From contig NZ_FZPC01000010.1 in assembly GCF_900187975.1 (NCBI RefSeq), positions 124,001 through 188,000 of the forward strand: a stretch of 64,000 nt of DNA, written 5' to 3'. The stretch is from Pseudomonas delhiensis. Lineage in GTDB: Bacteria > Pseudomonadota > Gammaproteobacteria > Pseudomonadales > Pseudomonadaceae. The position numbers were made by a program, and so were the translations under genes. Shown here one piece after another: positions 19,854 through 41,152 of this stretch. Each line of letters opens with the position of its first letter. Positions within the stretch are counted from its first letter, which is position 1. The notes beneath the pieces are model-generated. The model was not told the DNA's origin, made no database searches, and worked only from the letters and a program-made list of their open reading frames with translations.

Positions 19854-19877
19854 GTCGGTTGACCTGAGTTCGGTGGT

Positions 19878-20984: not shown

Positions 20985-21072
20985 GGGAAAGAACTACGCA
21001 GCAAGCCGAGACGGCAACACCCTGAAGACCGGGAGCCGTGAACGGAATTGATAGGAAACGGAATGAGGTAAA

Positions 21073-21102
21073 CCCTGCCGCCGCTATGACGTGGCGGCAG
21101 GG
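21073..21102 (-). terminator. Hairpin between gfcA and wza (attenuator or processing site)
   Basis: CCCTGCCGCC and GGCGGCAGGG form a perfect 10-base stem around a 10-base loop, 21 bases after the gfcA stop. On the transcript it is followed by TTTACC. A partial terminator here would make gfcA more abundant than wza and the genes after it. Confidence 0.5.
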
Positions 21103-21123
21103 TTCAGCGGCTACAGACTGATA

Positions 21124-22993: not shown

Positions 22994-23031
22994 CTTTGAT
23001 TTCCTCTGGAACTCGATTCTGCTATCAGAAA

Positions 23032-24051: not shown

Positions 24052-24115
24052 TGGGAACCTGCGGGAGTGATGGGAGCTATGCGGCTCGCATTAAGTAATG
24101 ACTGGGAGCTTTGGA

Positions 24116-25525: not shown

Positions 25526-25599
25526 CTGTATAGTCCTTTAGTCCCATAACTCATTGTTAGTATGGGCGAGTATTTTTATATTGTCTTGACAGGAAGGGT

Positions 25600-26700
25600 T
25601 CAGGTTGTGGCCAAGGCCTTGTCAATAAAGTCTTTGACGCGCTGTTGGAATTTTCTTTTCTCGAAGGTTTTTGCATGCTGATGCAGTTCGGCCGAGGCGA
25701 ATTCAAAATTTCCTGCTTCAAATTGACGCACTGCCTGGACTAATGCATCAATGCTCTGCTCATGGAAAAGAACACCCGTTTTTCCATGGACTACCGTATC
25801 CAAGGCACCACCTTTACCGTAAGCAATAACTGGTGCGCCGGCAGCCATTGCTTCGACGGGGACGATGCCAAAGTCTTCCAAGCCTGGAAATACTAAACCA
25901 CGACAACGCTGAAGTAGATCTTTGATAATTGGGAACGACTGACGTCCCATCAACGTGATATTAGAATTAGCTATCTCTTTCAACGTGTTGAATAATTCGC
26001 CTTCTCCCACCACTATCAAAGGTAAGCCCAACTTATTGAAGGCCTCTACGGCCAAGTCGGCGCGTTTATATGCCACAAGTTGACCCAGGCAGAGATAAAA
26101 GTCGCCTCGTTCCTCGGAATAGCTGAACTCAGATACGTTTACTGGTGGGTAGATAACTTCAGCCTGCCTACGATAGAACTTCTGGATGCGTGATGCGACG
26201 AATCTTGAATTCGCAATGAAGTGATCCACCCTGTCTGCTGAAAGTTTATCCCACATTCGTAACCAATGAGCTATAGCTGGGAACAGCATGCGTATGAGTC
26301 GCCCTGTCCCCGAGAGATATTCATGGTACATGTCCCAGACATAGCGCATGGGAGAGTGGCAGTAACAAACATGCAACGCGTCGGGACGAGTAATGACACC
26401 TTTTGCCGGTCCAGACTCGCTGCTGATGATTAGGTCATACTCGGTGAGATTTAATTGCTCCAAGGCAAGTGGCATGAGCGGTAAGTACTTCTGATAATGT
26501 TTACGGGCACCAGGGAGTCGCGAAATAAATGTCGTCTTGATCTGCCCTTTGAAGTTGCTCGGTAACGTTTTGCGCACCAGATCTTCATCGCAGACATGAA
26601 TGAATATATCTGCTTCTGGGTAAATTTCGGCAATGGCGGAGCAAACTGCCTCGCCGCCTCGGTTACTGAGCCACCAATAGTGAACTATTGCGACTTTCAT
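25600..26700 (-). CDS. Glycosyltransferase family 4, probable mannosyltransferase
   Basis: A 366-residue GT-B enzyme. The N-terminal domain has the block CHSPMRYVWDMYHEYL typical of WbaZ/Mtf-type mannosyltransferases. The C-terminal donor domain has the E-x7-E motif in EDFGIVPVEAMAAGAPVIAYG. No membrane segment is present, so it acts at the cytoplasmic face. Its place directly after manC suits GDP-mannose as donor. The acceptor and linkage cannot be told. Confidence 0.88.
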   Translation of the reverse strand: MKVAIVHYWWLSNRGGEAVCSAIAEIYPEADIFIHVCDEDLVRKTLPSNFKGQIKTTFISRLPGARKHYQKYLPLMPLALEQLNLTEYDLIISSESGPAKGVITRPDALHVCYCHSPMRYVWDMYHEYLSGTGRLIRMLFPAIAHWLRMWDKLSADRVDHFIANSRFVASRIQKFYRRQAEVIYPPVNVSEFSYSEERGDFYLCLGQLVAYKRADLAVEAFNKLGLPLIVVGEGELFNTLKEIANSNITLMGRQSFPIIKDLLQRCRGLVFPGLEDFGIVPVEAMAAGAPVIAYGKGGALDTVVHGKTGVLFHEQSIDALVQAVRQFEAGNFEFASAELHQHAKTFEKRKFQQRVKDFIDKALATT

Positions 26701-26792
26701 TTATATCCTTGATGAGTGTGAGGCGCGAATTGAAGTGTGATGGCTTGGTGGTTTTCTATGGGACTTTATCTAAATATTTTGAACTTGGAAAA

Positions 26793-27941
26793 TTACGCCT
26801 TTGATGAAGTGGTTTGCTCTATATAGTGTGAAATTCTTTGGGCTGCATAGTGCTCTTTAATAAAATTCTGTGCTGCCTGTAGATGCTGATAGGCCTCTTG
26901 CTTTTGAGTCAATAGCCGAATTGTTGTATTTATAAAATTTTCTGGTGTATCCGAAATAAAAATATGATGTTTAGGGGAAAGTCCGGTACCTTCATTTCCA
27001 ACGGTTGTCGTGATAACGGGGATTCCTGAAGCTAGAGCGTTAATATTTTTTATTTTTACTCCTGCTCCGTGGAATATTGGGGACACAAAAAGTGAACATT
27101 TATTATATAGAGACTCTAGCATCTCGTCTGAAGCGTTAGGGTAGATTTCTATATTTTTGTAATTTTTAAGCCAAGTGATCTCATGGTCACGAGTATTTCC
27201 TGCTATGTGAAGTCTGTAGTTAGGTAAACTACTTTCTATGGTTGGATGTACCTTTTCCAGATACCAGCGAAGGCCAAATATATTGTTTGGCATAAAAAGA
27301 GAGCCAATGTAAAGAACATCTTCCCCTTGTGGGAAGGTAGTACGCTCTAAAATACCATCTACATCGACTGGTGTTGGAAGCCAATACTCTTTATTTCCGT
27401 GGATTTGATTCTCTTTTTTCGATATGTAGAGTTTTTTTATGTTTTTGTAAGTTTCTCTCTTCTCTTGGATGTAAAATTTTATTGATTCTGAAAGGTAAAA
27501 TATTTTTCTCCAAGTGGTGTCCGCTTTGAATAAGTTATAAAAATATTTGCTTTCAATGTTATGACTTCTAAGCAGGGGGGTTTTGCAGTTAATTCTAGGG
27601 TTGTCTAGAATGGGAAAAACATAGTCTCCCTCAAGAATCATTATGTCATACTGGTCTCGTAAGGGGGTTAGATCTTTTAGAGATGCTCTAGATTTTCCTT
27701 GAAATGGAGTTAGGGAAAGTGTAGCGCTAATGCCAGTGTTTCTAGGTGAGACCAGTATTCCATGACAATATTTTTTTAGCTCTTTGTTTGTCTCCGTGGT
27801 AAGTTCATTGCCTGTTATAATTATGTCTATATTTTCTCTTCCGTATGTTTTTGAAATCACTTTTAACCGTTCAAATATGTCTACGCGACCTCCATGATTT
27901 GCTGGGTACGGAGAATCGCCAGCAACAATAAGTATTTTCAT
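26793..27941 (-). CDS. Glycosyltransferase, GT4-like (GT-B fold)
   Basis: A 382-residue protein. The N-terminus MKILIVAGDSPYPANHGGR is that of GT-B enzymes with a Gly-rich loop. The donor domain shows VLYIGSLFMPNN and SPIFHGAGVKIKNINALASG, followed by GIPVITTTVGNEG. The DNA is strongly AT-rich compared with the backbone. It overlaps wzy by four bases (27938-27941). Donor sugar and linkage are unknown. Confidence 0.85.
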   Translation of the reverse strand: MKILIVAGDSPYPANHGGRVDIFERLKVISKTYGRENIDIIITGNELTTETNKELKKYCHGILVSPRNTGISATLSLTPFQGKSRASLKDLTPLRDQYDIMILEGDYVFPILDNPRINCKTPLLRSHNIESKYFYNLFKADTTWRKIFYLSESIKFYIQEKRETYKNIKKLYISKKENQIHGNKEYWLPTPVDVDGILERTTFPQGEDVLYIGSLFMPNNIFGLRWYLEKVHPTIESSLPNYRLHIAGNTRDHEITWLKNYKNIEIYPNASDEMLESLYNKCSLFVSPIFHGAGVKIKNINALASGIPVITTTVGNEGTGLSPKHHIFISDTPENFINTTIRLLTQKQEAYQHLQAAQNFIKEHYAAQRISHYIEQTTSSKA

Positions 27942-29218
27942 GATTTATTATTGTCCTGAGAGAGATTAATTGTGATGGAAATCAATATAAATGCTGGATA
28001 AAAGCCTATACCGGTACTCCAGAATGAGAGCGAAGAAATAATAAAGAAAAATCCAGGTATAAGGTGTGACTTTCTGTTTCTGAGTATATTCGAAATTATT
28101 TTTCGGGTTTTTAGTAAAAGGAAGAAAACGAAAGGGATTCCGAAGTATATTATAGAGTCTGATAGGAATGATTTTGTGCTAATGGATTTTGTTGTTTGCT
28201 GTGTGGTATATCCAATAACCTCTGAGTAATCTAGATATGGAAGATATGGTCTGGCTAGGCGGATCACATAAGGGATAGATGATAGGTATTCATTCAAATA
28301 GGCACCAAAACCTACGCCGAATGGATTGTGTAATGCTATATATATCCCACTCATGAATCCAATGGTTCGTGTTGCTGTAGATGTATAATTATCCATATCG
28401 ATTGATATTCTTCCCAAGATGTAGGGGAGAATGTAGGATATGGCAATATAACTAGTGATGAGAATCAGTGCTGATGTAATTACTATGTATTTTTTGCTCT
28501 TTGCTTGTATGGTAAGTAGTATATAAAAACCAGCGACATACAATACAATTCCAGCTTTCGATTGGCTGTAAATCAGAAGTAGTGCGCCAATTAAAGAGGC
28601 AATGACTTTGTTGATAGTTCTTGGATCAAGGGAAAAGATTATTAGGGCTAGAGATCCAGAAATAAAAGCAAAATGACTTGCTTCCATTGTAAGCCCCCTT
28701 GGGCGGCCTTCACTGCTCCCTTCGTAATTAAGAAAACTAATATCCGAAAGAGTTGGTAGCGTTGACGCCACGCATAAAAGTAACCCGCCCCATGCTCCAA
28801 GCTTTAAAATAGAGTAATTTCGATTTTTTGTTAACACTAGAGATGTACTAAGAGTGTAAAAAATGAGTATTTTTATTGCTTTTAGTAATGTTGTTTCATC
28901 TTTTGTTTGTTGTGGAGTGAATAGCAGGTATAAAGTTGATATCACAATGACGTAGGTTATAATTATTGCTGTTTCGCGTCTTATTATTCCCTTGCTTAGG
29001 CTTCTATACGAAATAAATAAAAATAATAGACCTACAAAGGGGGCTGAGGCTGACGCGCCAAATATTCCTAGTGAAGTTGCTTGTAAAGAAAGGTTGGCAA
29101 TTGGTGATAATAATAATATAAGGGCCGAAAGAATGTCTTCTGGATATACTTTTGTTTTGGGTTTTTTATTGTATGCGTGCTGAGGGTATAATTTCTCTGC
29201 CGACTGTAAGAATTGCAT
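27938..29218 (-). CDS. wzy: Wzy-type polysaccharide polymerase
   Basis: A 426-residue integral membrane protein, nearly all hydrophobic helices (about 10-12) with a longer outside loop in the C-terminal half (after NPFGVGFGAYL). This profile and the setting with wzx, wzc and wcaJ mark it as the polymerase that links undecaprenyl-linked repeat units in the periplasm. Sequence similarity among Wzy proteins is very low, so the call rests on topology and context. The first 53 bases overlap the upstream transferase gene; a later start would shorten the N-terminal hydrophilic stretch. The sampled G+C at 28081-28140 is only 18 of 60. Confidence 0.8.
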   Translation of the reverse strand: MQFLQSAEKLYPQHAYNKKPKTKVYPEDILSALILLLSPIANLSLQATSLGIFGASASAPFVGLLFLFISYRSLSKGIIRRETAIIITYVIVISTLYLLFTPQQTKDETTLLKAIKILIFYTLSTSLVLTKNRNYSILKLGAWGGLLLCVASTLPTLSDISFLNYEGSSEGRPRGLTMEASHFAFISGSLALIIFSLDPRTINKVIASLIGALLLIYSQSKAGIVLYVAGFYILLTIQAKSKKYIVITSALILITSYIAISYILPYILGRISIDMDNYTSTATRTIGFMSGIYIALHNPFGVGFGAYLNEYLSSIPYVIRLARPYLPYLDYSEVIGYTTQQTTKSISTKSFLSDSIIYFGIPFVFFLLLKTRKIISNILRNRKSHLIPGFFFIISSLSFWSTGIGFYPAFILISITINLSQDNNKS

Positions 29219-30530
29219 CAGATACTTTCTCGATGTTGTGGCTTGTTATACATTTCGGATTTGATATCGGATCGGATATTATGCCCTCGAAGCTATTTCT
29301 TAGTATCCAGTTCTTGAATTCATGGGATTTACTCTCTGATTCCTTTATATGTTCAATTAGCTCTGGGATATCACTATTTCTAAGATCTTCTAGTGTCAGT
29401 TTCTTACAAAGACCTAGTTTGTTGAAAAATGTATCAGCGAATGTGGCGCTAGGAATCCCCTTCATAGCTGCTTCGTAAGCTACAGTACCAGATACAGTTA
29501 TGACTAACTGAGCGTTCTCAATAATGTTTAGTGAGCTCTCGTTCTCATCAATCAAGACTATCGCGGGGTCTCTAAGTAAACGAGTGAAGAAGAAGATACT
29601 TCTATCCCCGATTGCATTCGTATGCTCTTTTATTAAAAGTTTCCAGTTATCTGGTAGCGATCTTGATATATTGGTTATATTGACCTCTTGATCTTCATAG
29701 TACCGACCTATAACATCGATAGATGCTTCGGGTTGTTTGTGAAGGGTTAATAGAACATATTTTTCGTTTCTTATGCTTTCATCGAATTTCTTTCTAGGTA
29801 TAAATCTATATAATTCCTTGTTTAATTCTTCCTTTATTCTTTTTGTTAGTGTTCTTAAGTGTGAGGTCGTAAGGGTTGGATCATTAAAGTCTTTCTTCCA
29901 GCGTGTTATAAAATTATATAGCTTCTTGGCTCGATGATTAAAGGTTCTGGATTTTTTAAGGAGAGTATTGTTTAATTGTAGATAGTCTGGTGCTGAGACT
30001 TTGATTTCAGTTGGTGTTGTATGAATTGAGGTTTCTTTTTCTATTTCAAATATTTTTGACTGGAATTCATCTGTAAAGAAGGCAAATCTGTCAGACGGTA
30101 TTCGAATGGTGTGAGGGTTCAAAAACTTTGCGTTTAATTCTTCTCTGCTTTTTATAATTCTAAGTATAAGTATTTCATGAGCCCAAGTGATTTCTCCGAT
30201 GACAAGATTTATTTCTTTTTGTTTTATAAAATTATATATAGGGGACTGAATTTTTTTTAGATAGTTAATTCCCCAGTTTTCATATTTTAAGCAGCGATCT
30301 CCATGTACTAGCTCTTTTATTTTAAAGTCATCTATAGGAAGATTCTCTGTGTCGAGTAAGGACTTGTCTATGAGGAGTATATTTTCTTTGGGAGAGTTTT
30401 TCTCTAGCTCAACAGCTTGTTGTTTATTTGCCGATATCCAGAATATTTCTATTCCATTTTTTTTTAGTTGCTCTGATATTTTGTAAAAGAATAGTGTCTT
30501 TTGATAGTTTGCAATAAAGCAGACTTTCAT
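29166..30530 (-). CDS. KpsS/KpsC-like capsule glycosyltransferase, candidate pseudaminic acid transferase
   Basis: A 454-residue soluble protein. Two features recall the capsule-synthesis transferase family (KpsS, LipB and relatives): LLTLHKQPEAS at about residue 260, and the later series LLIKEH, an Asp/Glu-rich turn, then ITVSGTVAYEAAMKG. That family includes transferases of Kdo and other nonulosonic acids from CMP donors. The gene is directly after pseI, so it is the best candidate to transfer pseudaminic acid. The assignment is by motif and context, not alignment. The DNA is strongly AT-rich, and the 3' end overlaps wzy by 53 bases. Confidence 0.65.
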   Translation of the reverse strand: MKVCFIANYQKTLFFYKISEQLKKNGIEIFWISANKQQAVELEKNSPKENILLIDKSLLDTENLPIDDFKIKELVHGDRCLKYENWGINYLKKIQSPIYNFIKQKEINLVIGEITWAHEILILRIIKSREELNAKFLNPHTIRIPSDRFAFFTDEFQSKIFEIEKETSIHTTPTEIKVSAPDYLQLNNTLLKKSRTFNHRAKKLYNFITRWKKDFNDPTLTTSHLRTLTKRIKEELNKELYRFIPRKKFDESIRNEKYVLLTLHKQPEASIDVIGRYYEDQEVNITNISRSLPDNWKLLIKEHTNAIGDRSIFFFTRLLRDPAIVLIDENESSLNIIENAQLVITVSGTVAYEAAMKGIPSATFADTFFNKLGLCKKLTLEDLRNSDIPELIEHIKESESKSHEFKNWILRNSFEGIISDPISNPKCITSHNIEKVSDAILTVGREIIPSARIQ

Positions 30531-30560: not shown

Positions 30561-31616
30561 TTATTCGTAATCGCCAGGTAATACTGGTGTATTGGGTAGA
30601 GTTTTCTTTTTCACAGATTTCCCAACTACCTCTTTCATATACTTGGGCGCAAGTCCATAACCAGGTCGAACACTTCTGACTGAGTCGGCTGTTATCATAT
30701 CACCTGCTTCTAAATTTTTTACAAAATATAGAGATCTCCGGAATTTGACATTATCAATCTCGCTTGATTTTCGGCCATAATCAATCCTTCCCAAAGAAGA
30801 CCAAGAAATTTTGGTATTCTTGCAAAGTTCTTTAAGTTCGCTAGGCTCCAGAGAAAAGCTATCATCTGGTCCACCATTGTTTCGGTTGAGGGTAAAGTGC
30901 TTTTCAATAATGGATCCGCCTAGGGCAACACTTGTAATGGCGGTGATATTGTCTAGAGTGTGATCTGAAAGGCCTGTGACTAATCCAAAGCGATTTTTCA
31001 TGTCAACTAAGGTCTGAAGATTGTAGTCTTCTGGGGGGGCTGGATATCCACTTACGCAATGCAGTATTGCTAGCTCCTTGCAGCCACCATCTCTTGCTGC
31101 CTGAATAGCTTCTTCAATTTCCTCAGCATCAGCCATGCCGGTAGAAATGATCATTGGCTTGCCTGTGCCCGCCACATACTTTATTAGTGGCAAGTCTACT
31201 GCTTCGAAGGAGGCTATTTTGTATGCGGGCGCATTAAGGCTTTCCAGTAAATCAACTGCTGTATTATCAAAGGGCGAGCTAAAGATGGTGATTCCTAGTT
31301 TTTGTGCATATTCAAATAGCGGTTGATGCCATTCCCATGGCATATGAGCCTCTTGATAGAGCTGATAGAGCGTTTTTCCACCCCATAACCCTCCATGGAT
31401 TTTAAATTCGTCTGCGTCACTATCCAAAGTAATTGTGTCGGCCGTATAGGTCTGAAGCTTTATTGCGTCTGCTCCAGCCTTGTGTGCTTCTTCTATGATT
31501 TTTAATGCAGTTTCCAGCTTTCCATTGTGATTCGCGGATAGTTCTGCAATAACGTAAGGAGGGCAGTCCTCAGCAATACGACGCCCGGCAATACTGATAT
31601 TGGGAATAGCTTTCAT
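30561..31616 (-). CDS. pseI: Pseudaminic acid synthase
   Basis: PseI condenses 6-deoxy-AltdiNAc with PEP to give pseudaminic acid. The 351-residue protein has the NeuB-type TIM barrel beginning VIAELSANHNG and containing DAIKLQTYTADTITL, FSSPFD and the metal-ligand region GLSDHT...EKHFTL. A C-terminal SAF (antifreeze-like) domain contains LEAGDMITADSV and RPGYGL. DAIKLQTYTADT is more like PseI than sialic acid NeuB. The ATG abuts the TAA of pseH directly (TAAATG), so the two are coupled. It is the last gene of the pse block. Confidence 0.95.
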   Translation of the reverse strand: MKAIPNISIAGRRIAEDCPPYVIAELSANHNGKLETALKIIEEAHKAGADAIKLQTYTADTITLDSDADEFKIHGGLWGGKTLYQLYQEAHMPWEWHQPLFEYAQKLGITIFSSPFDNTAVDLLESLNAPAYKIASFEAVDLPLIKYVAGTGKPMIISTGMADAEEIEEAIQAARDGGCKELAILHCVSGYPAPPEDYNLQTLVDMKNRFGLVTGLSDHTLDNITAITSVALGGSIIEKHFTLNRNNGGPDDSFSLEPSELKELCKNTKISWSSLGRIDYGRKSSEIDNVKFRRSLYFVKNLEAGDMITADSVRSVRPGYGLAPKYMKEVVGKSVKKKTLPNTPVLPGDYE

Positions 31617-32126
31617 TTAATGGCTTCCTTGTGTTTGCCGCCACTCGTCTGCAAACAATCCAAAACAGTAGATGTCGTGATAGTTCACGCCATCGAAGTG
31701 CTGCTTTCGAAGGATTCCTTCATTTTGAAATCCGAGATTGTTATGAAGTTTTATTGACGCATAATTGTAAGAAAGTACTTGGGCGTAAACTTTTTGAAGT
31801 TTAATTTCTTCAAATGCATATTGTAGTGCGCATAGGGCCATCTTTGTCCCTGTGCCTTTAGTCGCGTCAGGCGCTACATAGAATCCCCATTCTACGATAG
31901 CTCCCTTTGATCGTTGGGTATAGTTCATATACCCAACGGGCTTTGCTCGCTGCTCAAATATAAGCAAAGTTTGTGCTGGGTCTTCGATAGCACGACGGAA
32001 CCACTGGGTATGCTCTGACATCTCGATAATGTTCTGATTGAACATGTATCGATTGATTGAGGGGGTATTCCGCCAATTTAAAGTTAAAGGTAAATCAGCC
32101 TCGGTTAGTTTTCGAAGACGCTCCAT
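31617..32126 (-). CDS. pseH: UDP-4-amino-4,6-dideoxy-AltNAc N-acetyltransferase
   Basis: A 169-residue GNAT enzyme that acetylates the 4-amino group in the third step of the pathway. The start LRKLTEADLPLTLNWRN and GYMNYTQRSKGAIVEWGFYV are typical of PseH. The acetyl-CoA loop is GTGTKMALCALQYAF, followed by the GNAT helix YNYASIKLHNNLGF. It lies 12 bases after pseG and its stop touches the pseI start. Confidence 0.93.
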   Translation of the reverse strand: MERLRKLTEADLPLTLNWRNTPSINRYMFNQNIIEMSEHTQWFRRAIEDPAQTLLIFEQRAKPVGYMNYTQRSKGAIVEWGFYVAPDATKGTGTKMALCALQYAFEEIKLQKVYAQVLSYNYASIKLHNNLGFQNEGILRKQHFDGVNYHDIYCFGLFADEWRQTQGSH

Positions 32127-32138
32127 GGAGAACTCCGT

Positions 32139-33221
32139 TTATTTCATCATTGCTTCTATTGCGCGTTGTGTGCCAATGCCGTCGACAAAGACAGTTGCGT
32201 TCTTCGAGGCTCGTGTAAGCTCTTCAGGGGAGTGAAGATTTTCCACATATATCGGTAGAAGGGCAGGAATCTGTTCAATGGAGGGAATCAGAAATGCTGC
32301 ACCCGCTTCGTGCAAGCGCTGGCCAATCAAGCGTTGATTTTCAGCTAGTATCAACATGATAGTGGGTAGCCCTAGGCAGCAGCGTTCCCAGCTTGTGGAC
32401 CCTGCAGCGCCAATTGCAATATCCGCATCGCTCATTAGGCTGGCCATATCTGGAGTATTGACCAGCAGTTGAGTGAAGCATTGCATCAGTTCTACTTGGT
32501 GGCAGACATCTGATAGCCATGGAGCGTTAGCTCCCATGACGACCTGTATTTGCCAATTAGGATCGACAATAGAACCCAGCACCTGCAAAACCATCCCAGT
32601 TGCATTGGAGGCGTCGACGCCCCCCATGCTGATAAGAATCTTACTCAAAGAGCGATTCTTTCTGCTTGCTAGGCTTCGGGCACGTAATTCACTGAACTTC
32701 GGCCGCAAAAGGGCATAACTTGGTCCCAGAAGTAAACGGCAGGCATCAGGGATAAGTCCGTGATAATCCTCAGAGGTTCGTCCCAGGCTTTGGTCAAGAA
32801 GTAGATCGCAATAATGGCTTCTGTCGGCGAGATCATCCAGTGCCATCAGGCGGTTGCAGTGCCTTGAGACCTCCTGTTCCCAGCGTTTTTCCAAGGCATA
32901 GTGATCGACCACAAGCCAGTCTGGCTGTACAGTTTCGAGCACAGCGGCAGTCTGTTCAGCGTCTTCGTACCAAGGCGCTCCTAGCCATCCAGCGTGTACT
33001 GGAACAAATGGATCATCCAGCATATTCCGGGCAATGAACGGAAGCACATGAAGACTATGCCCTCGCTCTAAGACGAAATTGTTCAAATGACCTGGATGTT
33101 CGCGGCAGATAAAATGACAGTGAGCTCCTTGGGCTTTTAATGCATCCGCCAATGTAAGACAGCGCATCAAGTGTCCAGAGCCCATTTTTAGCGAGGCATC
33201 GGTACGAAAGACAATATTCAT
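32139..33221 (-). CDS. pseG: UDP-2,4-diacetamido-2,4,6-trideoxy-beta-L-altropyranose hydrolase
   Basis: PseG removes UDP to free 6-deoxy-AltdiNAc for PseI. The 360-residue GT-B-like enzyme has GSGHLMRCL at the N-terminus. The histidine is residue 17, the position of the catalytic His in the characterised Campylobacter enzyme as I recall it. The UDP-binding C-terminal domain shows ILISMGGVDASN and GAAGSTSWERCCLGLP. It overlaps the end of pseF by one base (ATGA-type junction). Confidence 0.95.
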   Translation of the reverse strand: MNIVFRTDASLKMGSGHLMRCLTLADALKAQGAHCHFICREHPGHLNNFVLERGHSLHVLPFIARNMLDDPFVPVHAGWLGAPWYEDAEQTAAVLETVQPDWLVVDHYALEKRWEQEVSRHCNRLMALDDLADRSHYCDLLLDQSLGRTSEDYHGLIPDACRLLLGPSYALLRPKFSELRARSLASRKNRSLSKILISMGGVDASNATGMVLQVLGSIVDPNWQIQVVMGANAPWLSDVCHQVELMQCFTQLLVNTPDMASLMSDADIAIGAAGSTSWERCCLGLPTIMLILAENQRLIGQRLHEAGAAFLIPSIEQIPALLPIYVENLHSPEELTRASKNATVFVDGIGTQRAIEAMMK

Positions 33222-33922
33222 CAGGGGGAGCTCGTCTCGGCCTGCAAGGATTTAAACATCCACTCGGCTCGATACCAGTCCTCCTGTGTATCGATATCCT
33301 GTACCCGATGGCTAGGAAGTAATATGACTTTGGAGGTGTTGCTGAAGATTATTCGTTCGTTTAGCCAGGCATTCGCTCGACCCCAGTAGAACTGGCCTGC
33401 GTCATGATAGGCCTCTTCTAAGTCCTGGGAGCGAGTTTTGAAATGATCAGGGTTGAGCATTTCTACTCGGCCGTTAGAGTCCAAACGAATCGCTCGCTGG
33501 ATTGGGAAGGGATAGGTTGTGGCAGAAAATACATATTCGACTTTCTGTCGCTCCAATATCTCCAATCCCTTGTTCAGGTCTATTGGGCTTATAAACGGCG
33601 CTGTTGCATAGATACAGCAAACTTTATCCGGAAACAGTCCGTGTTGTTGATGCCATTTAATGGCGTGCTGGATCACTGGAGTCGTGCCGGTATAGTCATC
33701 AGATAATTCATTAGGACGCATGAAAGGAGTTTCTGCGCCATACTGAACTGATATCCGAGCAATTTGGGGATCATCGGTCGAAACTACTATCTTATCGAAG
33801 CATTTACTTCGAATGGCCGCTTCGATCGACCAGGCAATCATTGGCTTTCCGCAGAATTGTTTAATATTCTTGCCTGGAATCCGCTTGCTGCCTCCGCGGG
33901 CAGGGATCACCGCTAGCTTCAT
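33221..33922 (-). CDS. pseF: Pseudaminic acid cytidylyltransferase
   Basis: PseF activates pseudaminic acid as the CMP sugar. The 233-residue protein opens with the CMP-acid synthetase motif AVIPARGGSKRIPGKN, followed by KPMIAWSIEAA and the metal-site region YATAPF; DAGQFYWG near residue 170 is a PseF block. The frame runs upstream into pseC, but the ATG at 33922 gives the family N-terminus and overlaps the pseC stop by four bases. Pathway order on the DNA is B, C, F, G, H, I. Confidence 0.95.
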   Translation of the reverse strand: MKLAVIPARGGSKRIPGKNIKQFCGKPMIAWSIEAAIRSKCFDKIVVSTDDPQIARISVQYGAETPFMRPNELSDDYTGTTPVIQHAIKWHQQHGLFPDKVCCIYATAPFISPIDLNKGLEILERQKVEYVFSATTYPFPIQRAIRLDSNGRVEMLNPDHFKTRSQDLEEAYHDAGQFYWGRANAWLNERIIFSNTSKVILLPSHRVQDIDTQEDWYRAEWMFKSLQAETSSP

Positions 33923-35079
33923 GCTCCGACTGCCTGACGTAGAGCCGCAACGACTTGATCCTGCTGCTCTTCGCTCAAAGTCTGGTACATCGGCAGGCTG
34001 ATCGCTTCCCGATAGTACTGCTCGGCTTCCGGATAGTCGCCAAACTTGAAACCCAGTTCGCGATAGTAAGGTTGGGTGTGGACCGGGATGTAATGCAGGT
34101 TCACGCCGATTCCGGCGTCCCTGAGCTTCTCGAAGGTCTTCCGATGGCTTTGGGAGCACTCTTCGAGCTTCAGCCGAATGACATAGAGGTGCAGTCCGGA
34201 GTAGCTATCCGAATGCTGCCATGGTGTGACTACCGGCAGATCCGCCAGCAATTCGTCATAGCGGCGAGCCAGGTCATGTCGACGAGCGACGTAGCCGTCG
34301 AGACGTTGCATCTGGGATACCCCCAGGGCTGCTTGTAATTCGGTCATCCGATAGTTGAAGCCCAGATCGATCTGCTGGTAGTACCAGGGGCCATCGGCTT
34401 CGTGTGTCATCTGCGAGGGATCGCGAGTGATACCGTGGCTACGCAGCAAGGCCATGCGTTGCGCAAGCTGCGCATCGTTCGTGAGCGCCATTCCACCTTC
34501 GGCTGTGGTGATGATTTTCACCGGATGGAAGCTGAATACGGTGATATCGCTGTAGCGACCATTGCCGATGAACTCGCCGCGGTACTTGCCGCCGATAGCG
34601 TGGGACGCGTCTTCGATCACTTTGAAACCGTAGCGCTGCGCCAACTTGTGGATTGCCGCCATGTCGCAAGGCTGGCCGCATAAATGCACAGCAACCACAA
34701 TCTTCGGCAATTTACCCGCGGCTTCGGCTTGATCGAGTTTCCTGGCGAGCGCCTTGGGGCAAAGGTTGTAAGTTCTGGGGTCGATATCTACAAAATCGAC
34801 CTGAGCCCCGCAATACAGGGCGCAGTTTGCCGAGGCAACGAAGGTTATAGGAGACGTCCAGAGAACATCGCCATCACCCAGCCCCAGAGCCAGGCACGCA
34901 ATATGGAGCGCGGAGGTCGCGCTGTTGACTGCCAACGCGTGCTGGGCGCCTACATGCTGGGCCACGCTTTGTTCAAAGCGCGGCACCATCGGGCCTTGGG
35001 TCAGAAAGTCAGAGCGCAGGACTTCGATTACCGAATCAATGTCTGCCTGGGTTATCTCCTGACGGCCATAGGGAATCAT
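33919..35079 (-). CDS. pseC: UDP-4-keto-6-deoxy-AltNAc 4-aminotransferase
   Basis: The PLP enzyme puts an amino group at C4 of the PseB product. The 386-residue DegT/DnrJ-type protein has MIPYGRQEITQADI at the start, EDASHAIGG with a PLP-binding Asp, and the Schiff-base lysine in SFHPVKIITTAEGG at about residue 188. Its start overlaps the pseB stop by one base and its stop overlaps pseF by four. Confidence 0.96.
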   Translation of the reverse strand: MIPYGRQEITQADIDSVIEVLRSDFLTQGPMVPRFEQSVAQHVGAQHALAVNSATSALHIACLALGLGDGDVLWTSPITFVASANCALYCGAQVDFVDIDPRTYNLCPKALARKLDQAEAAGKLPKIVVAVHLCGQPCDMAAIHKLAQRYGFKVIEDASHAIGGKYRGEFIGNGRYSDITVFSFHPVKIITTAEGGMALTNDAQLAQRMALLRSHGITRDPSQMTHEADGPWYYQQIDLGFNYRMTELQAALGVSQMQRLDGYVARRHDLARRYDELLADLPVVTPWQHSDSYSGLHLYVIRLKLEECSQSHRKTFEKLRDAGIGVNLHYIPVHTQPYYRELGFKFGDYPEAEQYYREAISLPMYQTLSEEQQDQVVAALRQAVGA

Positions 35080-36077
35080 TAGATACTCCCGATCTTATCG
35101 AAGTTGCGGTCGATCCAAGCGCTGAGAGCTTCGTCGCTCATCCATTCGGAGTTGTTGTCACTGGCATAGACGAAACCTTCGGGCACCTTCTTGCCGTTCT
35201 TGATACGCTTCTCGCAAGTCGCCCAGTTATTGATCGTTGGTAGGATCTTGAAGTGCTCGGGATATTCGTAGGTGTAATAGGCGTCTTCAGCGCTGATCAT
35301 CTGCTCATGCAGCTTTTCGCCGGGACGGATGCCGATGACTTCCTGGGTCGCCTCCGGAGCGACCACTCGGGCCAGGTCGGTGACTTTCATTGACGGAATC
35401 TTCTTCACGTAGATTTCGCCGCCTTCCATATCTTCGAAGGCATGCCAGACTAGCTCGACACCTTCCTCCAGCGAAATCATGAAGCGAGTCATGCGCTCGT
35501 CGGTGATAGGCAGGACACCTTTGTCCTTGATGGACATGAAGAACGGGATTACCGAGCCGCGTGATCCCATTACGTTGCCATAGCGGACGACAGAGAACCG
35601 GCTGTCATGAGCTCCAGAATAGGAGTTGCCAGCAACGAATAGCTTGTCCGAAGCCAGTTTGGTTGCGCCATACAGATTGATGGGGCTGCTGGCCTTGTCG
35701 GTCGAAAGTGCCACCACGCGCTTCACTCCTTTATCGATGCAGGCATCGATCAGGTTCATGGCACCCATGACATTGGTCTTTACGCATTCGAAAGGGTTGT
35801 ATTCCGCTGTGGGAACGATTTTCGTGGCCGCGGCATGGACAACGTAATCGACACCATCCAGAGCACGGTAGAGGCGCTCTTTGTCACGGACGTCCCCAAT
35901 GAAGAAGCGAACGCGGTTGTCACCTTGGAATTTCTTGGCCATTTCCCATTGTTTCATCTCATCGCGGGAGAAGACGATGATTTTCTTGGGATTGTACTTG
36001 GCTAGAGTCATCGGTACGAAGGTATTGCCGAAAGAACCGGTACCGCCAGTGACGAGAATGGTTTTGTTTTGGAGCAT
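35079..36077 (-). CDS. pseB: UDP-GlcNAc 4,6-dehydratase (inverting)
   Basis: First enzyme of the pathway: removes water from UDP-GlcNAc and inverts C5. The 332-residue SDR has TGGTGSFG at 10-17, the catalytic STDKASSP (Asp-Lys pair of inverting dehydratases) and YGATK. It is short and soluble, unlike the long membrane-bound WbpM/FlaA1-like dehydratases with membrane helices. It starts 15 bases after wzx and begins the pse block. The block is less AT-rich than the wzy region and may have a separate origin. Confidence 0.96.
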   Translation of the reverse strand: MLQNKTILVTGGTGSFGNTFVPMTLAKYNPKKIIVFSRDEMKQWEMAKKFQGDNRVRFFIGDVRDKERLYRALDGVDYVVHAAATKIVPTAEYNPFECVKTNVMGAMNLIDACIDKGVKRVVALSTDKASSPINLYGATKLASDKLFVAGNSYSGAHDSRFSVVRYGNVMGSRGSVIPFFMSIKDKGVLPITDERMTRFMISLEEGVELVWHAFEDMEGGEIYVKKIPSMKVTDLARVVAPEATQEVIGIRPGEKLHEQMISAEDAYYTYEYPEHFKILPTINNWATCEKRIKNGKKVPEGFVYASDNNSEWMSDEALSAWIDRNFDKIGSI

Positions 36078-36092
36078 TTATGTATCCTTGGC

Positions 36093-37370
36093 TTATGCCT
36101 TAGCTGTGTTCGAAGCGTTTTGGGAGGAAATTTCGTATCTGAGGAGGAATAATGAAGCCGACTTCCAGAGCAGTATGAAAAGGAAAGTTCCGCATACTGA
36201 TATGGGAACGGCTAATGTTGCTGAGTAGTTTGAACTCAACCAGGCGCTCGCCGTGAACAGAGGTAGGGAAAGTAGATGGCTATAAATTATCGATCTGTCA
36301 TACCCCATTGCATATAGTGCATAGTGAGGAATCATCCCGACGCCATAGAGTGTCGTGGCTAGCAAAGTCCAGGGGAAAATGGATTGATAGGTGATGTAGA
36401 GATCTTTTCCCAGCCAATGGAGCAATGGTTCGATAGCCAGTAATGCTATGCCGAAGAATAGGGCGCTTACGATTGTGGTCTGCCCTGCCAGCTTTGCCAG
36501 CTCTGCTCGGAACTTCGGGATGTCACGGGAATGCCAAGCCTTGATCAGTTCAGGGTAAACAAACGAGAAAACACCTGCATCGAGGAACGACATCAGGGCA
36601 TTGCCTATGCTGATGAAAAGCACATAAGCGCCAAGCACTTCAAACCCGGACAGAGACTGGACCCAGTAACGGTCCAGAGTCAGTACCCCCCGAATGGCCA
36701 GGGTCGCAACCAGCAGAGCGCTGGATACTTTCAGACCTCGCAAGATCCATTGCCAATCGACTTTTGCCGACCAACCACTCAACCCGGCCCTGAACAGTAT
36801 GAAAACACCTAGCAGGAGTGCGAATGTGGCACCGATGCACCAAGCTGCGAGAATGAAATCCAGCGTGCGTAGATCTTTTGAAAAAGACATGGCCGCAACG
36901 GCCAAAATTGGCCAAATACCTTGCCGAAGGAATAGGATAATGCTCGCCGCAAGTTGCTCGGAGACTGCGATGAGCAGGCGGCCAAGCTCCTGAGTTAAGT
37001 GCTCAAGGACGACTAGAGTAAAGAACCAGGCGGCATACTTCCAAGGAAGAAGTCCTTTGATAAAAACAATGCTCAGGAGAGGCAGGGCGATGATGTAGAG
37101 GACCAGGAAGATACTGGCTTGGTTCTTGAGTATGGAGCCTCTTTGACTTTTGGGAACCTTCAATATTTCTCGAGTGGAGAAGGTGTAGAAGTCGAACCCC
37201 AGTATATAAAGTGAATAACCTATGGTTGCACTGAGCAAACCAAACAGCCCTAGCTCTGCGGGCGATAATAGGCGCGCGAGGAAAAAAACCAGTAAAAATT
37301 TGCTGGCAAGTGTCGAGCCGCGAAGCCCCACGTTGCACAAACGCTTGAGTTTTTCGTTCAGCATTGACAT
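36093..37370 (-). CDS. wzx: Wzx-type repeat-unit flippase
   Basis: A 425-residue polytopic protein (about 12 membrane helices) of the polysaccharide-export MOP superfamily, expected to flip undecaprenyl-linked repeat units to the periplasm. The opening KRLCNVGLRGSTLASKFLLV and LARLLSPAELGLFGLL are typical. The open frame continues upstream to a TTG at 37484, but that stretch is hydrophilic and contains an ops element at 37419-37430. The first good ATG, 37370, is therefore preferred; the ATG at 37364 is possible too. It is the first sugar-specific gene after the leader. Confidence 0.85.
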   Translation of the reverse strand: MSMLNEKLKRLCNVGLRGSTLASKFLLVFFLARLLSPAELGLFGLLSATIGYSLYILGFDFYTFSTREILKVPKSQRGSILKNQASIFLVLYIIALPLLSIVFIKGLLPWKYAAWFFTLVVLEHLTQELGRLLIAVSEQLAASIILFLRQGIWPILAVAAMSFSKDLRTLDFILAAWCIGATFALLLGVFILFRAGLSGWSAKVDWQWILRGLKVSSALLVATLAIRGVLTLDRYWVQSLSGFEVLGAYVLFISIGNALMSFLDAGVFSFVYPELIKAWHSRDIPKFRAELAKLAGQTTIVSALFFGIALLAIEPLLHWLGKDLYITYQSIFPWTLLATTLYGVGMIPHYALYAMGYDRSIIYSHLLSLPLFTASAWLSSNYSATLAVPISVCGTFLFILLWKSASLFLLRYEISSQNASNTAKA

Positions 37371-37418
37371 CTCAGCGGATTTTGCGCATAGGTCCGATTG
37401 TGAATCAGAGGGATTTGG

Positions 37419-37430
37419 CACGCTACCGCC
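37419..37430 (-). promoter_or_regulatory. ops element (JUMPstart core), RfaH recruitment site
   Basis: The minus strand reads GGCGGTAGCGTG, an exact match to the E. coli ops/JUMPstart core, preceded by CTGGG. It lies between rfaH and wzx, 48 bases before the wzx ATG at 37370. In known systems RNA polymerase pauses here, exposes this sequence in the non-template strand and loads RfaH. That an rfaH gene lies immediately upstream makes a chance match very unlikely. Confidence 0.9.
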
Positions 37431-37513
37431 CCAGGATTTTTGGTCAATTTCCTGAGGACTCTGTATATCGGTATGTAACGGCAATCGGGCCGGGCTTGCG
37501 CCTGAATACCAGT

Positions 37514-37531
37514 GAGATAGAGAGCTATCTC
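37514..37531 (-). other. Small hairpin in the rfaH-wzx leader
   Basis: GAGATAG and CTATCTC form a perfect seven-base stem around a four-base loop, upstream of ops. There is no T-tract. It may be structural or incidental. The rest of the 37371-37651 leader shows no gene. Confidence 0.4.
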
Positions 37532-37651
37532 TTTAGGATTTGAAAATACGACTAATTTCTGATCTGGTTTTCTGTTCAGAGGTTCCCGGTGAATAAATAA
37601 AAATGTTGATGGTTTGCATTAGATAAACTTGCTGCTCGAACATCTAACCGC

Positions 37652-38152
37652 TCAGATGATAGACTTTTCGATTCGAGAAAGTGGCACAGTGATTGTCACT
37701 TCGCGCTGAAGCAGCTTGAGTAGAAGAAGGACCCTTCCTTCCCCGTCGTTTTCTAGAAATATGGCGTCCAGGTGCGACAAGCCAGGATCGTTGATCGATA
37801 CTCGCTCACCTGGAGTGAGAGCGGGCGTGATGATCGTTCTGGGCTGACGCAACGAGTCGATGATGTCTTCCGGAACAGGCGTCGGGCGACCACCAAAGCT
37901 GACTATTTGGTTCACTCCGCGAGTAGAGCGAATAGGCAGCCAGTTATCTTCTACCCTATCTAGATGAATGAAGAGATAACCTGGGAAGAGTGGCTCGGAG
38001 TGCTGCTGCAAACATCCCTGATGCAGTCGCTCCAGTTGGAGTAATGGAAGAAGGCACTGATATCCTTGGCGCTCCAGATTTTCTTGGGCGCGCAAGGCCT
38101 GGCGCGGCTTGCATTGGACCAGGTACCAGCGTTTTCCGGTTGCGTCCGGCAT
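37652..38152 (-). CDS. rfaH: Transcription antitermination protein RfaH
   Basis: A 166-residue NusG paralogue. RfaH is recruited at ops sites, suppresses Rho and pausing in long surface-polysaccharide operons and can load ribosomes. The NGN domain begins WYLVQCKPRQALRAQENLERQ and contains EPLFPGYLFI and RSTRGVNQIVSFGG, all RfaH-like. The C-terminal KOW-type domain has PGERVSINDPGLSHLDAIF. It lies 95 bases after wzc and before an ops site, so it can act in cis on its own operon. P. aeruginosa has no well-known RfaH-controlled locus, which makes this linkage notable. Confidence 0.93.
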   Translation of the reverse strand: MPDATGKRWYLVQCKPRQALRAQENLERQGYQCLLPLLQLERLHQGCLQQHSEPLFPGYLFIHLDRVEDNWLPIRSTRGVNQIVSFGGRPTPVPEDIIDSLRQPRTIITPALTPGERVSINDPGLSHLDAIFLENDGEGRVLLLLKLLQREVTITVPLSRIEKSII

Positions 38153-38247
38153 GATTCCCTCGTTGCAGGACTGACTGCTCCTGCGGCTTTCCGATGCCCG
38201 CTATGCGGACGGGTATATGGATAAGGCCTTCCCTGGCCTTTCCTCAA

Positions 38248-40476
38248 TCAGGCTTTGTCTGATTTGTATTCGTAGTGGTAATAGCCGTAGCCGCCATAGC
38301 CGTAGGAGGCCGAGGCACGTTTCTCTACGCCGTTGAAGATGGCGCCCTTGAGTTCGATGCCGTTCTGTGCGAAGCGGCGGATGGTCAATTCGATTTCCCG
38401 TGCCGGGTTCAGGCCGAAGCGGGTGACGATCAGGCTGGTGCCGGACTGACGGCCGACGATGGCTGCGTCGGTGACCGCCAGCAGCGGCGGAGTATCCAGG
38501 ATCACCAGATCGAAATGCTGGCTGGCCTCTTCGAGGAAGGCCGTGAAATTGGGGTGCATCAGCAGTTCGGACGGGTTCGGCGGGATCTGGCCGCGCGGGA
38601 TGAAGTGGAATCCCTCGATCTCGGTGGTGCGTACAGCGGTATTGAGGTCGCAGCGCTTGACCAGGATGTCGGACAGACCATTTTCTTCCCCGCTATTGAG
38701 CACCTTGTGCAGGTAACCCTTGCGCATGTCCACGTCCACCAGCAGCACGCGTTGGCCGGTCTGGGCGATGACGGCTGCCAGGTTGGAGGAAACGAAGGTC
38801 TTGCCCACCGCGGGGCTGGGGCCGGAAATCATCAGGCGGTTGTTGCCGGCTTCCAGCATGGCGAAGTGCAGGCTGGTGCGCAGGCTGCGCAGGGACTCGA
38901 TGGCCAGGTCGGTGGGGTGGCTGATGGCGAGCAGAGGAGCTGCCTTGGCTGCGCGGCCACGGCCCTTGTCGCGTCTGTCTTCCTCGGCCTTCTGCAGAAC
39001 GCTGTAGGGGATCGAGGCATAGACGGGCAGGCCCAGTTGCTCGATGGCGTCTGGCGTTTCGATACCGCGATTCAATGCCTTGCGCAGCAGGACCAGGCCG
39101 ACGGCGAAGAACAGGCCCAGTAGCGTGGCTACTAGGACAATCATGGCTTTCTTGGGTTTGACCGGCTTAGTGATATCGACATCCGCGGAGTCAATGATGC
39201 GGACGTTACCTACCGCGCCCGCGCGCATGACGTCCAACTCCTGGGCCTTGTTCAGCAGTTGGGTGTAGATGGCGGTGCTGACTTCAACGTCGCGAGTCAG
39301 GCGCAACAGTTCCTGCTGGGTTTCCGGTAGACCTTCGACTTTGTGGGTGAGACCGTTCTGTTTCGAAGTCAATTCGCCGATCTGGGTCTGCAGGGCTTGG
39401 TAAGCCGGGTGCTGGCGAGTGAACTTGCGGTCCATTTCCGCTTGTTGCAGTTTCAGTTCGGAGATGTTGGTGTCCAGCGCCACAATCTGGTCGAGCAGGG
39501 CCTTGGTTTCCAGGCTGATGTCCGCGGATTTGGACTTGGTTTGATAGGCGCTCAGGGCATCCTCAGCCTTTTCCAACTCGCGGCGTACATCGGGCAGTTG
39601 GCCGCGCAGGAATTCCAGGCTGGAAGCTGCCTCCGCGGAAGCACGCTCCACGTTCTGCCGGACGTAGAGCTTGCTGATTTCATCCAGTACCTGCAGGGCG
39701 CGGGCCGGTTCGTCGTTTTCCAGCGACAGGCTGATGATGCCGGACTCCTTGCCGGTCTCGGCGACGTTCAGGTTGTCCTGGTAGCGCAGGATGGTGGTCA
39801 GGCGGCGTTCGCGCGTTACATTGAAGTGCGTGCCGGGGTTGGCATGCAGCGCCTCGACCTGGATTTTTACGCCATGCTGGTCATAGGCTTCGCCTACCTT
39901 GCCCTCGACAAGCACATTGTCGTCATCGTCCAGCAGGGTATAGGTGCCATTCTCGCCAGCGATCAGCGTGAGAGTTTTTTCCAGCAGAGCAGTCGGCACA
40001 TCGAGCTGGAAGACCTTCAGCTCCTCCCCACCCCAGCCAAAACGGCTCAGGCCGAACAGCGGTGTCGCGATTTCATCCGGAGTTTCCGGACTGAAATGTC
40101 GGGCCAGGAAGCCCCCGATCACCGGAAACCGCGACGGCTCCACCACGATATTCAGCTTGAGATTATCCACCGCCTTGCCGATGACCGCGCGCGAAGTCAG
40201 CAGCTGAATCTCTGTAATGGCCTCCGACTGCGCCCCCAGCAGGTCGCCCATATCCGATAGCCCGGGAATGCTGGGCTTTTTCTGCTCCACCTGCACGATC
40301 GCATCCGATCGATAGATCGGCGTAGCCAGCAGCGCATAGGCAACGCCCACGGCCATGAAGCCCGCGGTGATGCCGGCGATCAGCCATTTGTGGTCGATCA
40401 GGGTGCCGAGCAGACCCAGCAGGTCGATCTCGTCATCGTCTTTGTCGTGAATGGCTACCGGGGCTTGCTGTTGCAT
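38248..40476 (-). CDS. wzc: Wzc/Etk capsule co-polymerase and tyrosine autokinase
   Basis: A 742-residue inner-membrane protein controlling chain length and export with Wza. Order: Wzz domain after a helix at about 30-51, a long periplasmic coiled-coil region (about 280-430), a second helix about 443-463, then the cytoplasmic BY-kinase. Its Walker A is GPSPAVGKTF (about 548-557), A' LLVDVDMRKG, and B LVILDTPP. The end is a tyrosine cluster (YGYGGYGYYHYEY) for autophosphorylation. It lies 13 bases after its phosphatase gene wzb. Confidence 0.96.
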   Translation of the reverse strand: MQQQAPVAIHDKDDDEIDLLGLLGTLIDHKWLIAGITAGFMAVGVAYALLATPIYRSDAIVQVEQKKPSIPGLSDMGDLLGAQSEAITEIQLLTSRAVIGKAVDNLKLNIVVEPSRFPVIGGFLARHFSPETPDEIATPLFGLSRFGWGGEELKVFQLDVPTALLEKTLTLIAGENGTYTLLDDDDNVLVEGKVGEAYDQHGVKIQVEALHANPGTHFNVTRERRLTTILRYQDNLNVAETGKESGIISLSLENDEPARALQVLDEISKLYVRQNVERASAEAASSLEFLRGQLPDVRRELEKAEDALSAYQTKSKSADISLETKALLDQIVALDTNISELKLQQAEMDRKFTRQHPAYQALQTQIGELTSKQNGLTHKVEGLPETQQELLRLTRDVEVSTAIYTQLLNKAQELDVMRAGAVGNVRIIDSADVDITKPVKPKKAMIVLVATLLGLFFAVGLVLLRKALNRGIETPDAIEQLGLPVYASIPYSVLQKAEEDRRDKGRGRAAKAAPLLAISHPTDLAIESLRSLRTSLHFAMLEAGNNRLMISGPSPAVGKTFVSSNLAAVIAQTGQRVLLVDVDMRKGYLHKVLNSGEENGLSDILVKRCDLNTAVRTTEIEGFHFIPRGQIPPNPSELLMHPNFTAFLEEASQHFDLVILDTPPLLAVTDAAIVGRQSGTSLIVTRFGLNPAREIELTIRRFAQNGIELKGAIFNGVEKRASASYGYGGYGYYHYEYKSDKA

Positions 40477-40489
40477 GGGCGTGCTTCTT

Positions 40490-40957
40490 TTACTTCTTCG
40501 TCAGTGAGGCTTGGCGGTTCGGGCGAATGCGTTTGGCCCAGGCGTCGACGCCCTGTTCGATCAGCGCGTAGGCGTGCTCGAACACGGCGGTGCTCTGGCG
40601 GTAGGGGTCGGGGATTTCCAGGTCTTCCTGCCACTTGCCGAGCAGGAAGGTCTTGCCGCGGGCTTCCGGGGCGATCTGGGTGACGCCTTGCAGGTGGCGC
40701 TTTTCCATGACCAGGACCAGGTCGGATTCGCGCAGCAGGCTGGACGTCAGTTGGCGGGCACGGTGTTCGTGCGGCTCCTCGCCGTGTTGCTGGAGAACGG
40801 CCAGGGCATGTTTTTCGATGGGTTTGTCGACCAAGGCGCCGAGGCCAGCGGAGCTGACCAGGATGTCGCTGCCGGCCAGGCGCTGGCGCAACAGATGTTC
40901 TGCGGTAGGGCTGCGGCATATGTTGCCGACGCAGACGACCAGAATCCGTTTGAACAC
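40490..40957 (-). CDS. wzb: Low-molecular-weight protein-tyrosine phosphatase Wzb/Etp
   Basis: A 155-residue phosphatase that dephosphorylates the Wzc tyrosine cluster. The P-loop VCVGNICRSPTAE gives the C-x5-R-S active site near the N-terminus, and IPDPYRQS carries the general-acid Asp. The frame opens at 40987, but AAGGAA before a GTG at 40957 and the family N-terminus (FKRILVVCVGN) decide the start. It is the first gene of the locus, just after a sigma-70 promoter. Confidence 0.94.
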   Translation of the reverse strand: MFKRILVVCVGNICRSPTAEHLLRQRLAGSDILVSSAGLGALVDKPIEKHALAVLQQHGEEPHEHRARQLTSSLLRESDLVLVMEKRHLQGVTQIAPEARGKTFLLGKWQEDLEIPDPYRQSTAVFEHAYALIEQGVDAWAKRIRPNRQASLTKK

Positions 40958-41001
40958 AGGGACTTCCTTGATCCTACAGACGTGCATGTATGAAGGCGGG
41001 G

Positions 41002-41030
41002 AATGTAAGAGTCGGGGCTTTCTGAGTCAA
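41002..41030 (-). promoter_or_regulatory. Sigma-70 promoter of the capsule locus
   Basis: On the minus strand TTGACT (41030-41025) and TACATT (41007-41002) are 17 bases apart. They match the consensus at five and four of six positions. The start site would be about 40995, some 40 bases before the wzb GTG. Confidence 0.65.
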
Positions 41031-41106
41031 GGCTGGCAATCGGAATGTGACGAGTTTCAGATTCTTCCAGACATGGCCATGTGCTATGCCATTGCTGCCT
41101 TACAGC

Positions 41107-41137
41107 GCGGACAGCCGTTTGTCGGCTGGCTGTCCGC
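41107..41137. terminator. Hairpin after plsB
   Basis: GCGGACAGCC and GGCTGTCCGC form a perfect 10-base stem around 11 bases, 15 bases after the plsB stop. There is no T-tract on either strand, so terminator function is uncertain. Confidence 0.4.
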
Positions 41138-41152
41138 GGGGAGGGGGGATGC

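Follow-up and report, generated by a model that had tools for sequence, protein, structure and literature searches.

In Pseudomonas delhiensis, a gene for the antiterminator RfaH lies in a run of surface-polysaccharide genes and is followed on the same strand by an exact ops element, which forms part of a JUMPstart element. This linked rfaH-ops form is common in the Pseudomonadaceae sequences compared here and is not special to this strain. We consider the locus to be probably a self-contained RfaH/JUMPstart module, and the sequence is most simply read as a site where RfaH would load at ops in the way known from E. coli. Most likely, promoter-proximal RfaH would load at ops and carry RNA polymerase through a 15.8-kb low-GC sugar island. 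The pairing of antiterminator and ops in relatives suggests an operon that carries its own helper. Throughout, the window is the whole stretch of 64,000 nt that was analyzed, and its features are listed in Table 1.

Table 1. Features of the rfaH-ops locus in the window, in order of transcription.
Feature	Position	Strand	Evidence
Promoter-like site before wzb, weak, 9/12 matches	41002..41030	-	Consensus scan, 1 found vs 2.4 expected in shuffles
wzb-like low-molecular-weight protein tyrosine phosphatase, opens the run	40490..40987	-	LMWPc 129.5 bits
wzc-like tyrosine autokinase, upstream of rfaH, same direction	38248..40476	-	WZC_N, GNVR, Wzz domains
rfaH, NusG paralogue, 166 aa	37652..38152	-	TIGR01955 172.3 bits; PDB 5ond E 8e-33
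Spacer, rfaH to next gene, 281 nt, 44.8% GC	37371..37651	-	GC count, promoter/terminator scans
JUMPstart: stem-loop and ops	37419..37464	-	Arms 37450-37457 and 37429-37436; RF01707, R1, covariation
ops element GGCGGTAGCGTG, exact	37419..37430	-	Sole exact match in window
Membrane protein, candidate Wzx flippase	36093..37370	-	7 hydrophobic segments; start ATG 37370
pseB, pseC, pseF, pseG, pseH, pseI: CMP-pseudaminic acid pathway	30561..36077	-	Six NCBIfam equivalogs over cut-off
Remainder of low-GC island	21578..30530	-	Profile matches, GC
Strong RNA hairpin then UUU, candidate terminator or attenuator	21072..21103	-	-30.3 kcal/mol; z -4.75 for 21060-21125
Export genes wza, gfcB/yjbF, gfcC, yjbH	16349..20984	-	Profile matches; 60-66% GC

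Gene Content and GC Course

The GC content falls along the run, from 60.5% in wzc to 53.5% in rfaH and 47.0% over positions 37370-21578, where it reaches a minimum of 34-37% in the middle of the island, and it returns to 60-66% in the export genes (window, 62.5%). The part of the island that follows the pseudaminic acid genes encodes a Wzy-like protein, two glycosyltransferases, a ManC-like protein, an epimerase, and a WcaJ-type initiating transferase, as well as a possible glycosyltransferase or epimerase with a weak match. The gene directly after ops had been named wzx. Its position and hydrophobic segments suggest a flippase, but it has no Pfam or NCBIfam match above background, so this label is a guess from position.

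A 593-bp gap (21577-20985) separates the sugar island from the export genes, and it contains a small ORF and the hairpin listed in Table 1. The ORF (21124-21396, minus strand) has a weak YjbE likeness of 10 bits, which is under the cut-off, and sits upstream of the hairpin, after which comes wza. The hairpin is absent from the terminator-like sites of the terminator scan; it may act as a terminator or attenuator ahead of the export genes.

The return of GC and the gap with its hairpin before wza set the island that would need RfaH at 15.8 kb, and the export genes may be separate from it. The original prediction spoke of an AT-rich operon with a 20-kb distal unit of sugar and export genes. The first description holds for the 15.8 kb of low-GC sugar genes and not for the export genes (60-66% GC), and the 20-kb unit is made up of these sugar genes plus export genes that lie behind the gap.

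rfaH and Its Product

The rfaH ORF scores well above the cut-off of the NCBIfam RfaH model (144.5 bits) and reaches 34.5 bits against the NusG model, below the NusG cut-off of 135.7, which agrees with its earlier assignment as rfaH. Its best solved relative is E. coli RfaH. One further match to the RfaH model occurs in the genome at E <=0.001 (54.6 bits, under the cut-off), and it is presumably NusG.

Residues of E. coli RfaH that contact ops with a strong defect when changed are K10, R16, H20, T72, and R73, while Q13 and R23 have mild effects (PMC2871177). Four of the five strong residues are kept in the window RfaH (K10, R16, T72, and R73), as are Q13 and R23. H20 is N, and a change of H20 in E. 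coli RfaH causes a strong ops defect (PMC2871177). The other substitutions relative to E. coli are R11 to P, N70 to R, and I146 to L. The HTT motif (65-67) for antipausing, which is named in PMC2871177, is not conserved and was read by eye as N-W-L in the alignment with E. coli RfaH; this motif is not demanded by TIGR01955.

On the interdomain side, roles have been described for E48, I93, and F130 (PMC7593976) and for the E48-R138 salt bridge and L142 (PMC13015549). All four autoinhibition residues (E48, R138, I93, and F130) are present in the window RfaH, and L142 is also kept. Class A comprises loci with ops just downstream of rfaH; among its 116 alignment rows, 87 have E48 and all have R138, with some species counted twice. 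Most rfaH copies that lack an exact ops nearby have the key residues too, and the residues alone do not separate the classes. The residues kept in the window protein, an RfaH of E. coli type, argue against a monomorphic, ops-independent form with a NusG-like C-terminal fold.

The ops Site and JUMPstart Element

As predicted, the spacer behind rfaH holds an exact ops. It begins 221 nt past the rfaH stop codon on the same strand, ends 48 nt before the ATG of the next gene, and is the only site without mismatches in the window. Sites with up to two mismatches number 13 in the window, which is the chance level. By a second-order Markov estimate, 0.017 exact sites are expected per window and 4e-5 on one strand of the spacer.

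The Rfam JUMPstart model RF01707 matches 37419-37461 from end to end at 25.1 bits, under its gathering score of 35. Among the 12 further class A loci of the genus that were searched, it matched none up to E 1. We also used a covariance model, R1, made from 51 sites (50 distinct sites from 52 named class A loci and the window). R1 scores the window element at 62.2 bits (E 5e-14), with the window itself among the training rows.

Across the 51 sites, a stem of seven pairs directly before ops has 92.4% of its cells paired, compared to 84.2 in shuffles. Stem cells changed on both sides number 28, compared to 8.0 +/- 2.3, and 0 of 500 shuffles were as high. Both measures drop when the stem partner is slid. 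The stem is CAGGA/TCCTG in most Pseudomonas rows and TTGGA/TCCAA in Legionellales rows. Two of five covariation measures do not clearly exceed shuffles (pairs with a double change, reached by 190 of 500 shuffles, and further pair types, by 45 of 500), and RNAalifold unaided picked the small ops hairpin instead of this stem. Folded by itself, the window element is no more stable than shuffled sequence (z -0.92). Taken over the aligned relatives, the stem before ops appears to be kept by compensatory change.

Recurrence of the rfaH-ops Pairing

In 25 genomes of the genus, 29 rfaH copies were found in 23 genomes, and they form two lineages with 100/100 support, 13 copies of the window's type and 16 others. 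An exact ops lies within 1 kb downstream on the same strand in 13 of 13 copies of the window's type and in none of the 16 others, for which 1.5 kb on each side was searched. This second lineage (L088-L103, about 148-158 bits) also has no ops with up to one mismatch within those 1.5 kb.

R1 gave a strong match beside rfaH in all 13 genomes of the window lineage (E from 3e-14 to 7e-6), of which six have a cis site identical to a training row and seven have sites outside the training rows. It gave none at E <1e-4 in the 12 other genomes of the genus (best 5.8e-4). R1 was applied per genome to 150 first-look candidates in the genus and 20 in the family. Among the 150 scored of 2238 first-look candidates in the window genome, no further R1 site was found at E <=0.1. 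Exact ops sites beyond the 13 cis sites in the 13 genomes number 16, compared to 30 matches of a reversed-pattern control, and are therefore not in excess.

The family comparison covered 298 Pseudomonadaceae genomes, 171 with an RfaH-model match at E <=1e-20, and ops placement was judged by distances within the analyzed loci and by R1. These were 140 of the best 150 listed rfaH places, so weaker copies are under-represented. The original prediction proposed a search for rfaH-ops pairs in other Pseudomonas capsule loci, and in the family such pairs are frequent: an exact ops lies 0-1 kb downstream on the same strand in 62 of the 140 loci and is missing there in 78. In none of the same 140 loci does the 1 kb upstream contain a same-strand exact ops, and none has an opposite-strand exact ops within 1 kb. 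Eleven have one upstream on the same strand (ten at 8.2-8.6 kb and one at 1.3 kb), four have one on the opposite strand about 5 kb away, and three have one more than 1 kb downstream. The stretch contains no exact ops in 60 loci, six of which have a same-strand site with one mismatch.

At the level of genomes, an R1 match at E <=1e-4 occurs in 80 of 298, and 79 of these 80 encode RfaH, compared to 92 of the 218 without a match, in support of rfaH and ops being kept together. There are 110 such JUMPstart matches in the family. Fifty-six, from 53 genomes, follow a listed rfaH at a distance of up to 1.2 kb, where the list comprises the best 150 family places and three genus places. The remaining 54 are otherwise within 40 kb of a listed rfaH (17) or elsewhere or beside unlisted genes (37). 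In other genera, JUMPstarts far from a listed rfaH indicate that such RfaHs probably act both in cis and in trans.

In a set of 71 named rfaH loci, Legionellales included, 52 have an ops with up to one mismatch 0-1.1 kb downstream on the same strand, at a median of 79.5 nt from the rfaH stop. The named and family sets overlap in species, so their counts are not to be added. A drop in GC content past ops is likewise seen in 35 of 37 named loci and in 49 of 59 from the family. On a tree of 228 rows, the label "ops just downstream" needs 19 changes, compared to 76.0 in shuffles; by this measure the state is clustered on the tree, with several gains or losses.

Neighboring genes were sampled roughly, by taking the longest same-strand ORF (100 aa or more) within a fixed interval, which gave 50 downstream and 41 upstream genes for the 52 loci. 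The genes after ops vary widely, with 56 Pfam families over 50 loci, the commonest being nucleotidyl transferases (15), UDP-sugar dehydrogenases (7), and flippase-type proteins (5). Of the 41 genes sampled before rfaH, 17 encode a beta-CASP nuclease and seven a Wzc-like protein. Since the genes differ on both flanks, the rfaH-ops linkage is kept while both sides change.

Transcription of the Locus

RfaH of E. coli displaces NusG, blocks Rho, and couples ribosomes. At the P. delhiensis locus, transcription from upstream of wzb would read wzb, wzc, and rfaH and then the JUMPstart, where the hairpin and ops would pause RNA polymerase. The ops in the non-template strand would recruit and open autoinhibited RfaH, translated from the promoter-proximal part of the same run. 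By displacing NusG, blocking Rho, and coupling ribosomes, RfaH would then allow expression of the low-GC genes from 37370 to 21578. We infer the read-through from rfaH, the loading of RfaH, and the antitermination at this locus from sequence. A feed-forward timing or switch, as first proposed, is a prediction, and an RfaH effect reaching the export genes is likewise speculative.

The original prediction held that a strong promoter at 37371-37651 would make the ops irrelevant. The consensus scan of 36000-41600 found a single promoter-like site, the weak one before wzb, and none in the spacer behind rfaH. The scan for terminators also found no minus-strand terminator-like site in the spacer.

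An alternative is that there are two units, with rfaH ending a wzb-wzc unit and the sugar genes having their own promoter just before the JUMPstart. RfaH would still load at ops, as a diffusible factor, with no read-through and no feed-forward within one transcript. The 281-nt spacer of the window fits this arrangement, and so do promoter-like sites in class A rfaH-ops stretches, which are somewhat above shuffles (14 of 98 vs 8.9), and the distant JUMPstarts of other genera, with RfaHs that probably also act in trans. Against it, the window spacer lacks a promoter-like site, and terminator-like sites before ops are in no clear excess (4 of 98 class A spacers, 2.7 expected). In addition, many relatives have little room for a promoter outside rfaH, since ops starts within 100 nt of the rfaH stop in 35 of 52 named loci and in 11 of 64 from the family. 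We consider two units unlikely, and read-through from rfaH into ops likely on the features of the spacer.

Another alternative is co-translational recruitment in cis without need of ops, as has been proposed for ancestral operon-encoded RfaH, in which case ops would be a by-product or a relic. The idea has been published for operon-encoded homologues (PMC13015549 and PMC7819879). However, the 12-mer and the compensating stem are kept over divergent loci, E48, I93, F130, and R138 are kept in the window RfaH, and the exactness of a relic ops would not be expected to last, so that we regard recruitment without ops as quite improbable. A chance 12-mer match without a role was rejected as next to impossible, since so few exact sites are expected in the spacer, this is the sole exact copy in the window, and it recurs in relatives, even though the genome has one other exact copy, which by eye lies a few codons inside a short ORF of another locus, starting at L002:1462.

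Comparison With Known Systems

In E. coli, RfaH acts with ops/JUMPstart on polysaccharide, haemolysin, and tra operons. The P. delhiensis locus shares the RfaH family, the ops 12-mer, the JUMPstart hairpin, and a long polysaccharide operon. Unlike in E. coli, rfaH directly precedes its ops, and no further R1 site was found at E <=0.1 among the 150 candidates scored. The original prediction stated that rfaH is unlinked in enterobacteria; this agrees with PMC7593976 for E. coli, but in Pseudomonadaceae linkage is common.

NusG paralogues encoded within operons have been described before, and PMC7593976 calls their modes of recruitment unknown. UpxY of Bacteroides, LoaP, TaA, and Shewanella CL7 RfaH resemble the P. 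delhiensis protein in that the antiterminator gene is in or beside its own envelope or natural-product operon. No ops is mentioned for them in the source text available, whereas the window locus has one. UpxY is described as acting on the leader that precedes its own gene, where it prevents termination (PMC7819879).

A 2026 preprint (PMC13015549) ties operon-linked RfaH mostly to ops-independent, non-autoinhibited forms, and its table gives 17 of 212 metamorphic RfaHs as adjoining an operon. Its operon rule allows gaps of up to 200 bp. The gap from rfaH to the next gene in the window is 281 nt, so such loci may be missed by this rule. The monomorphic homologues of the preprint are similar in that rfaH adjoins long operons with LPS genes. 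They are predicted to be non-autoinhibited and those tested are ops-independent, whereas the window RfaH keeps the residues for ops reading and autoinhibition and has an ops. A cis-encoded, ops-paired module does not fit the picture given in the preprint.

In Vibrio vulnificus, the group 1 capsule operon with ops is RfaH-dependent according to a review (PMC7247339). As in the window, ops is within an operon holding wza and wzb, and in V. vulnificus the distal and not the proximal capsule genes depend on RfaH, as is predicted here. The available review text does not place rfaH in the capsule operon, whereas rfaH of the window is within the run. An RfaH-domain protein inside an EPS locus of P. 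stutzeri is reported in PMC5532660. In the literature covered, which was mostly judged by title and the start of the abstract and includes few subscription papers, we recognized no paper on rfaH followed by ops in Pseudomonas.

It is possible, though we hold this tentatively and slightly doubt it, that RfaH and JUMPstart travel as the head module of exchangeable surface-sugar operons. The antiterminator gene would be fixed in front with ops at the junction, and any low-GC sugar set could be swapped behind it. If so, each operon would be licensed by its own autoinhibited, ops-reading RfaH. Being encoded in cis would in that case not imply that autoinhibition had been lost, in conflict with the present view of RfaH evolution, and the reading of ops could have begun in cis, with action in trans coming later. 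The rfaH-ops pair, kept in many species with differing genes behind it, offers a small direct test of a cis origin of ops reading and autoinhibition. It is also a marker for finding RfaH-dependent surface-polysaccharide loci outside enterobacteria.

Other rfaH-ops Layouts

The idea that an rfaH without an exact ops nearby has no signal was rejected. Sixty family loci contain no exact ops, and in 38 of them a variant, GGCGGTAGC[T/A]T[T/G], lies 7.95-9.27 kb upstream on the same strand; four of these 60 loci have less than 8 kb of upstream sequence. As controls, the opposite strand of that interval carries the pattern in 2 of 60 loci and the 1.8 kb downstream in 0 of 60. Enriched 10-mers near rfaH genes without an exact ops were taken as conserved coding sequence and were of no use as a signal.

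A second layout therefore has its ops far upstream, either as the variant in these 38 loci or as an exact copy about 8-9.3 kb upstream of rfaH (L132-L137, L139, L141, L214, and L220). In L135, the operon before rfaH encodes an aminotransferase, a flippase-type protein, a glycosyltransferase, Wzc, and WbqC. With rfaH inside a polysaccharide operon behind ops, RfaH would boost its own synthesis. In a third layout (L197, L227, L228, and L229, and also L024 and L027), rfaH is preceded at about 5.1-5.4 kb by an ops on the other strand. In L135 and L141, a single leader some 8.4-8.6 kb upstream of rfaH carries two exact ops separated by 84-99 nt, and in L133, L134, L137, and L139 the second copy in the leader is a variant.
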